41,931 nt of DNA from an uncultured Mycoplasma sp. (GTDB lineage: Bacteria; Bacillota_I; Bacilli_A; Mycoplasmatales; Metamycoplasmataceae), in assembly GCA_947040455.1 (NCBI GenBank), contig CAMRBN010000007.1:1-41931 (forward strand). Reading direction: 5' to 3'. The position numbers and the translations under genes were made by a program. Positions 6,921 to 41,931 of this stretch are shown here, one piece after another. Positions within the stretch are counted from its first letter, which is position 1. The number at the start of each line of letters is the position of its first letter. The notes beneath the pieces are model-generated. The model saw nothing but the letters and a program-made list of their open reading frames with translations. It did not search any database and was not told the origin of the DNA.

Positions 6921-8552
6921 ATGGAAAATGATGAAATAATTAACAAATGAAGGGCTTCATTCGCTGAAGATAAAGAAAGTTTAAAAAAACTTTCTAAATT
7001 GAACAATTTAACTGATGATAGTCCATTTTTTTCTAACTTGTTTTTTGATTCTAAAAAAATTATCGCCAGATTAGGGATTGGTTATGGAAAACTAAATAAA
7101 TTAGTGATAAATTCATTAGCTTATTCTTTTGCAGAAATTCTGAAAAGAAGGAAGATGGAAAATGATTTTATTGATATTTTAGTTTGTAGTGATGGATCGC
7201 CAGAAATAAAATCATTTTTAAAAAATATTTCTGATGTTTTGTATGCACAAAAATTAGTAATTACAGCATTTAAATTTTATGCAGGATACGATATTAAGTT
7301 TGTTTGTAGAACTATTGGAAGATTGAAAATAACTGCAGGAATTTATATCGAAAGATCTATTTATAATAACAATATTTTCAATGTTTTTTTTATTGACCAT
7401 AAAGGAAATTATTTTGGAGAAGAATTTTTTCAAGAAATTAAAAGCGAAATGTCAAAGCATGATATATTTTCAATTAAATCGCAATCTTCCAAAGTTGACT
7501 TCTTATCAAACAATAGAGTTATCAATGATTATACCCAAAAATTATTATCTTTATCCAATAGAAAAGGCGACCAAAGAAAAGTGAAAATTGCCATCTCCAA
7601 CTATAATAATGGTGTGACCAAAATTTTACAAAAAATATTGGGTAATATGGATTTTAATTACATTATTAACAATAAAATAAACAAAGGTAATATCCATCAA
7701 AAGAAAAATAGAAATGATAGAACCTTTAATTCTTTTTATAAACGAGATATTTTATTTTCAAGAGAAAATAAGTGCGATATGCTTATTTGTCCATCAAAAA
7801 ATGGAACTGAATTAAATCTTTTTGTTTTTAATGGCAGACAAGTATTTCACTTAGATGCAAATGAAATCACATTAATGTTTTTAAACTTTTTTTTAATTGA
7901 AGTTAATATTTCTACCAAAAAATTACCAAACTCATATATCGGAACAGATATACCTCCCATTCAAAGTATTAAAAATTTAATTAAAAAATACAACTTAGAA
8001 CTATCGGTTTCAGAAGACATTAAAATTTCAAATGATAAATTTTTATTGTTTTATTGAAATCAAAATTCGCAATTTATTTTTGGAGAAAATACGATTATTG
8101 AATTTGGTTTTTACCATTTAATAATTAAGTTTTTAGAAATGATTAATTACTATAAAACACAACGTTTAACAATTCCTGCTTTAAGAAATATACTAACCAA
8201 GATGTATGGGTCTTATAAAACCCACATCATCATACTTAATTTTGATTTAAGTAGATTGTATGCTTTATTAGATAATATAAATCTTTCATTATTAAATGCA
8301 AAATTTCCAGTAGAAAATACTGTCATATTTGAACACTCGACTGTTTTAAATGAAAATTTAATTGCCAAAATATTACTTAAAAATGGAGTTGAGCTTCTTA
8401 TAAAATTTAATTATTTAAATAAAAAAATAGTTATTTTTATAAGGTTAGAAGATATCAACAATAAAATATGAAGTAGAGATCATATTTCTAAAAATAGCTT
8501 TGTCAAACACTTAAATTCAATTATTAAAAAAGATTTGAAACATATGATTTAA
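6921..8552 (+). CDS. Phosphohexomutase (ManB/PGM) family protein lacking active-site motifs
   Basis: A 543-residue protein, the full length of mollicute phosphomannomutase/phosphoglucomutase. The family course can be followed from end to end: ARLGIGYGKLNKLVINSLAYSFAEIL aligns with the 'RG.MG.G.NR.N...V....A...' region, quoted as residues about 40-65; TAGIYIERS (138-146) sits where the phosphoserine loop 'AGIMITASHNP' belongs; ICPSKNGTELNLFVF (about 289-303) sits where the metal loop 'DPDGDR' belongs; FIFGENTII (about 388) replaces the sugar-binding 'EESYG', followed by the typical EM..YK....T.PALRNILTKMYG. The catalytic Ser-His, the metal Asp residues and the EESYG loop are all missing, so mutase activity is not expected. 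The start uses ATG 6921 with TGA Trp at codon 10. It is divergent from lepA and ends 6 bases from the opposing EAL-like gene. The family assignment is by my own motif alignment. Confidence 0.72.
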
Positions 8553-8557
8553 CAACC

Positions 8558-8578
8558 ATTATTTTTCATAAAAATAAT
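8558..8578 (+). terminator. Possible terminator hairpin at convergent junction
   Basis: A 9-bp perfect A-T stem (8558-8566 with 8570-8578) with a 3-base loop, followed by TTTATTTTATT. It overlaps the last codons of the opposing gene. An all-AT stem is weak, so confidence is low. Confidence 0.35.
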
Positions 8579-10082
8579 TTATTTTATTATTGATTAATTC
8601 AAATTTTGAAGGATTTTCAAAAATAAGTGTTGCAGGATTTTTATTACACAACATAATCAATTGTTTTAATTTTAAAAATTTTCTTAAATCTGTTGAATCA
8701 ATTAAAGATTCTGAAATAATTATTGCATGTGGCATTATTGATTCTATCAAAGTTATTGTCGAAGGTCCAATTTCATCTATTCTAACGCCAAATTTAATTC
8801 CCTTTGACTTTAATGTAGAAGTAATAAGTTCAAAATTTGGGACATCAGTTGATTCAAGGAATTTAACTACAAAAATCATTCCTGATAATTTTTGTAGTTT
8901 ATCAACATTTTGCAAAATAACATAATCATTTACGTCTATTAAATATTGATCCATAGTTTTAAAAGAAGATAATGCACTATTGAAATATTCATCCTCAATA
9001 TTTGGCAAAATATTGTCATTTTCAATAATCATATTTATTCAAAAATTATCAGGATAATTTGGCTCTGGTTTTATATATGTCGCTATAGTAGTATTATTTT
9101 TATAATCCATTATAGACATTTTAGAAAAATTAATTATTTTATTCTTAATAATATTATTCAATAATAAATAATTTTCTTTGAATTCTTCAAATTCATTAAA
9201 AAATATGTTTTTTGCATTAAAATAAAATGTTTTTTTCAATTGAGTTGATTTTATTATCGAAAAGTAAATTCTATTAATTATTTTTAATAAATCTTTTGTA
9301 TCAAATAAATTTTTGCTTTCTACAATACCGATAGCATTGCAATAAGAAATTAAATTGCTAGACACTTTAATTTTTTCAAATTTTTTCATTATTTTGTTAA
9401 TTCTTTCTTGTATTTCTTCAGAATTATCACCATACAAAATTAAAATAACGATGTTTTTGGATATAAAAAAATCTAAATTTTTAATTTTAAGACTTTCAAA
9501 TAAAATCATTATAAAATCTTTAAATGTTTTTTGGTCTTTTGTTCTAAGGTTAAAAGCAATAAAGGATTTGTATTTTTGAGTATTTTCAAATAATTTTTCT
9601 TTGGTAATTACTCTCAATCCATCAGGAAGTTCTTTGACATAACTTCATTTAATTGTGGCATTAACAGAATCTTTTGTTTGAAAAAATTCTACAATTCATT
9701 CAATATAATAATCAGGATCTTTAGTTGTTTTATTTTTAACAGTAAATTTTACATATTTTTTATTTACTTTAATAGCGTCCAAAGCATTTAAAAAAAGTTC
9801 TTTGTTTTCATCTGACAAATTAGATAAAAATTGGCTAATATCCATTCATCCATCATCAAAAAATTCATGATTATAATTTTTACTAACTTCTTTGTCAATA
9901 ATTTCAATAATATCTGATTTTCTTAATCTATTATTTTTCAAATCCACATCTATAAGAAAAATTCCATTGTTAGATTTAATGATACCTTTTTTTTGGATAA
10001 AAAATATGGCTACTATAATAAATATTAATGCTATTAATCCAATTGAAAAAATTGCTAAAAAAATATATAGTAAAATATACAT
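8559..10082 (-). CDS. Membrane-anchored degenerate GGDEF/EAL-like protein
   Basis: A 507-residue protein under code 4. Residues 2-30 form one strong membrane helix (YILLYIFLAIFSIGLIALIF). Residues about 165-300 resemble a worn GGDEF fold: SFIAFNLRTKDQKTFKDF, then FFISKNIVILILYGDNSEEI, where canonical proteins have 'D.d.FK..ND' and 'R.GGDEF'. Residues about 310-507 follow the layout of an EAL phosphodiesterase domain: FSKMSIMDYKNNTTIATYI where 'QPI.d...g...EAL.R' belongs; PDNFWINMIIENDNILP for the 'P..FI..AE..g.i' helix; FVVKFLEST for 'ei.Es'; GIKFGVRIDEIGPSTITLIE for 'g...aiDDFGtG.ssl..l'; HAIIISESLI for the 'KID..fi' strand. The metal and catalytic acids (E of EAL, DD of DDFG, K of KID) are not conserved. 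The ATG overlaps the pcrA stop by one base (TAATG), so it is the last gene of the operon. A sensor or scaffold role is inference. Confidence 0.6.
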
Positions 10083-40670: not shown

Positions 40671-40726
40671 TTTAATAAATTTATTGAATATACATTAAGA
40701 TTCGTAAATTGTTTAAAGGAGATTTT

Positions 40727-41931
40727 GTGCAAAAAAAGGTTAAAAATGTTTTAATAGGAACTTCTGTTTTGGGTTTACTAGGTACAACAATAATTGTTGG
40801 AAACACAATCAACAACGGAAATGAAAAAGTAATCAACCATTTGAAAGAAATAAAAGGAGTAAATAGTAGTGTTAAAACAACAACTTCAACACTTTTAAAT
40901 CAAGAGATTGTTCAAGCTATTGGTTGAGATACTAAAACAACAATAACTTTAGAGGACTGAAAAACACAAGCTCCAAATGTAACTGAAACATTTCAATCAT
41001 TTATGAATAATACTTTATTGACATCAATAGAAATTCCCTCATCAATCCAAGTATTGGGAGAAAATACTTTTTCATCTAATGTAAATTTAAAAAATGTAAA
41101 ATTTGAAGATAATTCTAAGTTAACAACTATTGGTAATAATGCTTTTGGTGGAACTACTGCTTTAAATATTATCAAAATACCTAAATCTGTAGCATATTTA
41201 AACACTATGGTTTTTGATAGTTCTGGAATTAGCAATATAGTGTTTGAACCTAATTCTGTTTTGAATACTATTGGTAGTTATGCATTTGGTCCAAACTTGC
41301 TATCTATAAAAATTCCAGAATCAACAAAAGTTATTCAAAAATCAGCTTTTTCAAATGCAACAAACTTAAATGAAATTACAATGTCTTCTAACTTTAAAAC
41401 CTGAGGAATTATTCAAATGATACATTATGGTTTTACAAAAACTCAATGAGATAGTGTAATTTGAAGTAACCCACCAAGCCAAGCAACTATTTTAACCAAG
41501 CAAGTTATTAAAAATATTGGTTGAGATACTAAAACAACAATAACTTTAGAGGACTGAAAAACACATGCACCTAATGTAATTGAAATAAGTGCAGATGCAT
41601 TTACAAATAACGTAATTTTAACTTCAATTGAAATTCCAAGCAATATTGAAACTATAGCTGCGACTTCTTTTGGTGGAACAACTTCTTTGACAACAATATC
41701 TATGCACATATCCATGAAAACGCCTGCTTTAAGTTATGGATTTTCTCAAGAACAATGAGATGCAATAAATTGAATTTCTAAATTAACAGGAACAACTTTA
41801 AATTTAAAAATAATAAAAAAATTAGGTTGAGATACTAAAACAGAAATAACTTTGGTAGATTGAGAAATGATTCCTGATGTAATTGAAATAAGTGCAGATG
41901 CATTTACAAATAACGTAATTTTAACTTCAAT
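40727..41931 (+). CDS. BspA-like leucine-rich-repeat surface protein (3' end outside window)
   Basis: The first 401 codons of a larger protein, start GTG with AAAGGAGA 4 bases upstream. Residues 1-30 (QKKVKNVLIGTSVLGLLGTTIIVGN) form an uncleaved or cleaved signal/anchor without a lipobox cysteine. From about residue 64 it consists of modules that start with GWDTKT.ITLEDWK, followed by BspA/LRR_5-type repeats such as LTSIEIPSSIQVLGENTF, LTTIGNNAFGGTTALNIIKIP and FTNNVILTSIEIPSNIETIA. Module starts are at 40922, 41519 and 41825. All Trp are TGA. Such LRR_5 proteins are secreted or surface-bound adhesins in bacteria and protists. Near-identical DNA repeats suggest length variation between strains. 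Confidence 0.87.
40918..41565 (+). repeat. 51-base exact direct repeat (40918-40968, 41515-41565)
   Basis: Two identical copies, 597 bases (199 codons) apart, encode IGWDTKTTITLEDWKT. A third, diverged copy begins at 41822-41825 (ggttgagatactaaaacag). Confidence 0.9.
41574..41931 (+). repeat. At least 55-base exact direct repeat (41574-41628, 41877-41931)
   Basis: Two identical copies, 303 bases apart; the second runs into the window edge, so the true repeat may be longer. They encode VIEISADAFTNNVILTS. Confidence 0.9.

Follow-up and report, generated by a model that had tools for sequence, protein, structure and literature searches.

An open reading frame of the window, by which we mean the whole stretch of 41,931 nucleotides analysed here, encodes a full-length homologue of the alpha-D-phosphohexomutases in which every catalytic loop has been changed, and the gene is nevertheless maintained by strong purifying selection. 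The window is contig C7 of a genome of 820 kb that is 99% complete. The frame (6921..8552, + strand) starts with ATG and is open over 543 amino acids under genetic code 4, which reads its three in-frame TGA codons as tryptophan; it was assigned as a pseudo-phosphohexomutase by homology, by an AlphaFold2 model with its fold match and by dN/dS. We consider it likely that the gene arose long ago as a paralogue of the bacterial phosphoglucomutase/phosphomannomutase ManB/PgcA and that its product has no catalytic activity left. Strong purifying selection would have preserved this product, with its complete four-domain fold, for a function different from hexose phosphate transfer, and it would act independently of ManB as a soluble binding or scaffold protein of the cytosol.

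The family assignment was supported by several comparisons. The NCBIfam model NF045968 ("MAG5620 family putative phospho-sugar mutase") matched residues 58-537 (E 8.6e-25) with a score of 87.4 bits, below its curated cut-off of 115 bits. Single-sequence searches gave weaker results: Pfam PGM_PMM_I was found below threshold (E 0.0017), and a phmmer search against the PDB sequences returned no match. When compared directly by BLASTP, the window protein and the intact ManB encoded in its own genome aligned over 429 columns at 21% identity (E 5e-11), and comparison of the window protein profile with that of 13 intact ManBs by hhalign gave a probability of 99.85 over 485 columns (E 1e-30). The AlphaFold2 model, built from a 13-sequence alignment, had a mean pLDDT of 86.6 and a pTM of 0.87. 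Residues 36-541 of this model were superposed by VIA-align on the phosphomannomutase of T. thermophilus (1tuo) with a Z score of 28.2 and an rmsd of 3.2 over 420 residues. All 50 entries listed as structural matches had Z scores of at least 22, phosphomannomutases and phosphoglucomutases being matched end to end, and Foldseek matches reached E values down to 4e-19. The predicted four-domain fold of the alpha-D-phosphohexomutase superfamily thus extends over the whole chain. An earlier reading made from the sequence only had proposed a full-length member of this superfamily; the model agrees with it, and the lack of structural similarity that would have contradicted it was not observed. The window protein is a true alpha-D-phosphohexomutase homologue, a chance resemblance being ruled out by the direct BLASTP match, the profile comparison and the fold.

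We then have to consider what remains of the active site. The window's genome has its intact ManB on contig C9. This protein of 514 amino acids shares its fold and length with the window protein, but it carries the four catalytic motifs TASHNP, DPDADR, EESYG and RPSGTEPK. Alignment with this enzyme showed that the phosphoserine-loop equivalent of the window protein reads ERSIYN (residues 144-149, 7350..7367, + strand as for all segments below), with Ser146 kept and the His, Asn and Pro of TASHNP lost. The metal-loop equivalent, SKNGTE (residues 292-297, 7794..7811), has lost all three Asp of DPDADR, and the phosphate-binding loop RPSGTEPK is replaced by KFNYLNKK (residues 495-502, 8403..8426). 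At the entry of domain III, SYIGTD (residues 338-343, 7932..7949) takes the place of ManB SFVSSS and ranks in the top 5% of the protein for conservation. The sugar-binding loop EESYG corresponds, by alignment and conservation, to NQNSQ (residues 380-384, 8058..8072). The sequence-only reading had described the first two replaced loops as IERSIYN and SKNGTEL, in agreement with the alignment. It had also taken GENTI as the counterpart of EESYG; that loop is indeed replaced, but GENTI (residues 388-392, 8082..8096) aligns just downstream of the true equivalent. Likewise, its statement that all active-site loops are replaced is correct in that every catalytic loop is changed, but has to be qualified for the serine of the phosphoserine column. 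This serine is kept in six of seven close orthologues and is an Asn in the seventh (L060).

The aligned positions thus lack the catalytic His and Arg, all three metal-binding Asp and the phosphate loop, and none of the loops TASHNP, DPDxDR, EESYG and RPSGTEPK that define the superfamily as enzymes was found. A motif scan of the 543 residues detected neither DxDxD nor Ser-His anywhere in the protein, so that the active site has not simply been displaced, as could have been objected to the first reading. Of the 65 residues that never vary among the 13 intact ManBs, the window protein has retained only 10, most of them at non-catalytic positions. Since phosphohexomutases are known to depend on their metal ligands and phosphate loop, both of which are missing here, phosphorylation of Ser146 in the usual way is unlikely. 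The window protein is probably devoid of mutase activity.

The loss of catalytic residues extends well beyond the window. Within the window's family, 107 of 135 genomes contained a match to the NF045968 model. Six of them had no match other than a mutase whose domain I is intact, so that a degenerate protein is present in 101. We aligned 49 degenerate relatives, stand-alone or fused to another domain, the window protein included. Each keeps at most four of 15 catalytic positions, and the catalytic His and Arg and the Gly and Thr of the phosphate loop are kept in none of them. A maximum-likelihood tree placed the 22 stand-alone pseudoenzymes, which form the NF045968 group of the window protein, on one side of a branch with a support of 100/98, apart from the intact and the fused mutases. 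Stand-alone and fused pseudoenzymes together were separated from the intact mutases with a support of 100/100, a value that long branches and the shared loss of the same columns may exaggerate; the relative order of the fused and the stand-alone types is also uncertain because of the long branches. According to this tree, the window protein is a member of a monophyletic clade of stand-alone pseudo-phosphohexomutases around NF045968, and as judged from the aligned sequences catalytic degeneracy is a family-wide condition and not the peculiarity of a single gene. For one genome of genus g2 (G221), three equally scoring pseudoenzyme copies were listed (C1:16611, 32146 and 723172).

We followed the selection acting on the gene by comparison with its closest relatives. 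The six closest orthologues come from metagenome assemblies of uncultured Mycoplasma or Mycoplasmataceae. Against the orthologue of a sister genome (89% identity), the window gene gave a dN/dS of 0.087. For the same pair of genomes the values were 0.10 for dnaE, 0.11 for the MHO_4530 gene, 0.06 for uvrD, 0.138 for the active ManB and 0.098 for a fused paralogue. Since synonymous sites are near saturation in distant pairs, only this closest pair is reliable at face value; across the seven orthologues (57-89% identity), which are all open over about 540 codons, dN/dS ranged from about 0.09 to 0.3. The window gene is thus maintained by strong purifying selection and is not decaying, as had been proposed from its intact frame, its dN/dS being no higher than that of the neighbouring genes dnaE and MHO_4530 and lower than that of ManB. 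Although the loss of every active-site loop is what might be expected of a decaying pseudogene, or of a frame open by chance, this explanation can be dismissed on the grounds of dN/dS, of the open frames of the seven orthologues and of conserved synteny, genuine decay having a different appearance. Such decay is seen in the pseudoenzyme copy of a genome of genus g3 (G259:C1:603657-604958), which contains 20 in-frame TAA.

Constraint is unevenly distributed along the protein. With domain limits drawn by eye from the model and the alignment, dN/dS was lowest in domain III (0.029) and, of the four domains, highest in domain IV (0.155). The segments ILGNMDFNYIIN, SYIGTDIPPIQS, LLFYWNQNSQFIFGEN and EMINYYKTQRL rank in the top 1-7% of conservation among the seven orthologues, so that the conserved stretches lie in domains II and III, which formed the side that once bound the sugar. 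In domain II, ILGNMDFNY (residues 239-247, 7635..7661) is among the most conserved segments, its G241 and Y247 being invariant in 13 diverse relatives. The motif NYYKTQ (residues 409-414, 8145..8162) is a signature of stand-alone pseudoenzymes in several genera and is partly ancestral, as ManB has SYYKNK. The replaced hinge and EESYG-equivalent segments rank in the top 5-7% of the protein by conservation; the equivalents of the phosphoserine and metal loops, by contrast, are no more than average. Domains II and III may thus form the contact surface that has been maintained. Because neither a signal peptide nor a membrane segment was seen in the sequence of the window protein, its location is presumably cytosolic.

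This distribution can also be read in another way, namely that the protein has remained an enzyme, with a cleft remodelled to act on another substrate or to carry out another reaction, perhaps with Ser146 still taking part. Constraint is indeed strongest in domain III and in the EESYG-equivalent loop, Ser146 persists in most orthologues, and among the closest of these the replacement loops are conserved as well. However, no metal-binding Asp, catalytic Arg or His, or phosphate loop is left, the loops vary from one genus to another and have no new polar residues of catalytic appearance in common, and Ser146 itself has been exchanged for Asn once. We regard continued catalysis of this kind as rather unlikely. 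A broader proposal, that the domain III cleft was rebuilt into a new site for either binding or catalysis, with a function conserved throughout the family and independent of hexose-phosphate metabolism, is put forward tentatively, as possible but not favoured. If it were true, the entire family annotated as mutases would represent a neofunctionalised fold. The non-enzymatic role implied by the sequence-only reading agrees with the pattern of losses, and we retain it as the more plausible reading; a new catalytic activity would look the same in the sequence.

If the preferred explanation, a dead paralogue acting as a binding or scaffold protein, is correct, possible partners have to be considered. 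GlmM offers one model, as a phosphohexomutase fold that binds the c-di-AMP synthase CdaA and tunes its activity. GlmM-CdaA complexes were indeed among the structural matches (7olh, 7ojs, 9g69), and a diadenylate cyclase domain was found in 132 of the 135 family genomes. Genus g5, for which no pseudoenzyme was listed, has the cyclase just as regularly; because the cyclase is near-universal, its presence pattern speaks neither for nor against such a role. In length and in its N-terminal extension the window protein resembles ManB/PgcA and not GlmM, and an action of this type appears improbable.

We judge it equally improbable that the protein is a dead subunit that regulates or stabilises the active ManB. 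Pseudoenzyme and ManB do occur together in the window's genome and in its genus, the search for an active paralogue suggested by the first reading having led to the intact ManB described above. However, the two genes lie on different contigs (C7 and C9) in this genome, and 58 of the 101 genomes with a pseudoenzyme (thus 58 of the 135 of the family), including all 22 of genus g2, have no intact phosphohexomutase as detected by PF02878. Because of this presence pattern a ManB-regulating role is unlikely, and partnership with ManB is disfavoured.

The gene neighbourhood gave no hint of a pathway, partner or ligand, the neighbours being housekeeping genes that vary between genera. In close relatives the gene is located between lepA (-) and a gene of the MHO_4530 family (-), followed by uvrD where the contig reaches that far. 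In other genera, for which the names of neighbouring genes were read from their sequences, it follows gyrA (13 genomes), precedes rpsD (12 genomes) or lies beside ABC transporter or lipoprotein genes. A functional link to MHO_4530 was considered and rejected: this gene is present in 128 of the 135 genomes but, among the places listed, adjoins the pseudoenzyme only in the window's genus. In the window, the MHO_4530-family protein (8559-10082, - strand, 507 aa) matches NCBIfam NF045955 (E 8.6e-49) and has no Pfam match. A single N-terminal helix is followed by a predicted fold like that of PAS-GGDEF-EAL proteins (E 1.6e-10 with the GGDEF-EAL part of LapD), in a model of modest confidence (pLDDT 66.5); a GGDEF or EAL motif is not evident in the sequence. 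The window's family is not known for c-di-GMP signalling. Two further frames were noticed near the ends of the window. One, of 127 amino acids (91-474, + strand), contains repeats of MPVYLDQLISEPI and a stretch rich in PQQFIQQ, and matches no family. The other (40709-41929, + strand) runs off the end of the window and has a signal-like N-terminus followed by repeats of the type IGWDTKTTITLEDWKTQAPNVTE or LTSIEIPSSIQ, which may be akin to the BspA-like leucine-rich surface repeats.

Besides ManB and the fused pseudoenzymes, two known systems are close to the window protein. The first is NF045968 itself with MAG5620 of Mycoplasma agalactiae: the homology is full-length (58-537), the loops are degenerate in the same way and the proteins share one stand-alone clade. 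The name given to this family implies a putative mutase, yet no inspected member has retained the catalytic residues. In M. agalactiae gyrA is MAG5630 (PMC3179502), to which MAG5620 is adjacent by its number, and gyrA is the upstream gene in 13 relatives here. The second is PGM5, or aciculin, a vertebrate phosphoglucomutase paralogue without mutase activity that has been kept for another role (PMC7761743); in the herring, most of its active site is kept and glucose-1-phosphate is still bound. PGM5 is likewise a pseudoenzyme of the phosphohexomutase fold, and it matched the model of the window protein with a Z score of 22.8; the predicted fold is thus shared, but PGM5 keeps its substrate site whereas the window protein lacks all the substrate loops. 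By analogy, PGM5 might be the closest precedent for how the window protein works, GlmM coming second, and the window protein could be regarded as a bacterial counterpart of PGM5 that is more thoroughly degenerate.

Mycoplasmas are wall-less bacteria whose genomes are among the smallest known. A gene of 1.6 kb that is probably unable to do its annotated job, and is at least as constrained as an active enzyme, points to an unrecognised function. Metabolic models that trust the name "putative phospho-sugar mutase" would credit these species with a reaction that they probably lack. Our literature search found no paper on MAG5620 or on phosphoglucomutase pseudoenzymes in mycoplasmas. The NCBIfam name of the family and the existence of dead phosphohexomutases in vertebrates were already known; that the family is degenerate as sampled, old in its host family, strongly selected and independent of ManB appears to be unreported in the literature searched.

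Other phosphohexomutase-like genes were encountered in these genomes. The window's own genome encodes a second pseudo-phosphohexomutase (G000:C1:171987-174881, - strand; L085:1988-4882), a protein of 965 amino acids that is catalytically degenerate and carries a C-terminal flippase-like membrane domain (PF03706). Fused pseudoenzymes of this type resemble the window protein in their degeneracy and in falling on the same side of the tree, but differ from it in their length (about 950-990 aa) and their membrane domain. In genus g3, an intact ManB was found in 24 of 25 genomes with the fused type against one of 32 genomes with the stand-alone type only (Fisher p 8e-14, uncorrected for relatedness). 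MBOVPG45_0728 of M. bovis (2973 bp) is probably of the fused type, judging by its length and annotation, and is dispensable in that species (PMC4045577). Intact mutases with all catalytic motifs can also be fused to a C-terminal membrane domain of the same kind; examples are L084/L061 of Mycoplasma sp. ATU-Cv-703 and L087 (G010) of another family, the latter as judged from its C-terminal sequence. The fused pseudoenzymes probably descend from such proteins or are related to them. Finally, a shorter and divergent phosphohexomutase-like frame of 403 amino acids (L069:1299-2507, - strand) was found in a genome of the window's genus (G272) that already carries intact, fused and stand-alone copies.
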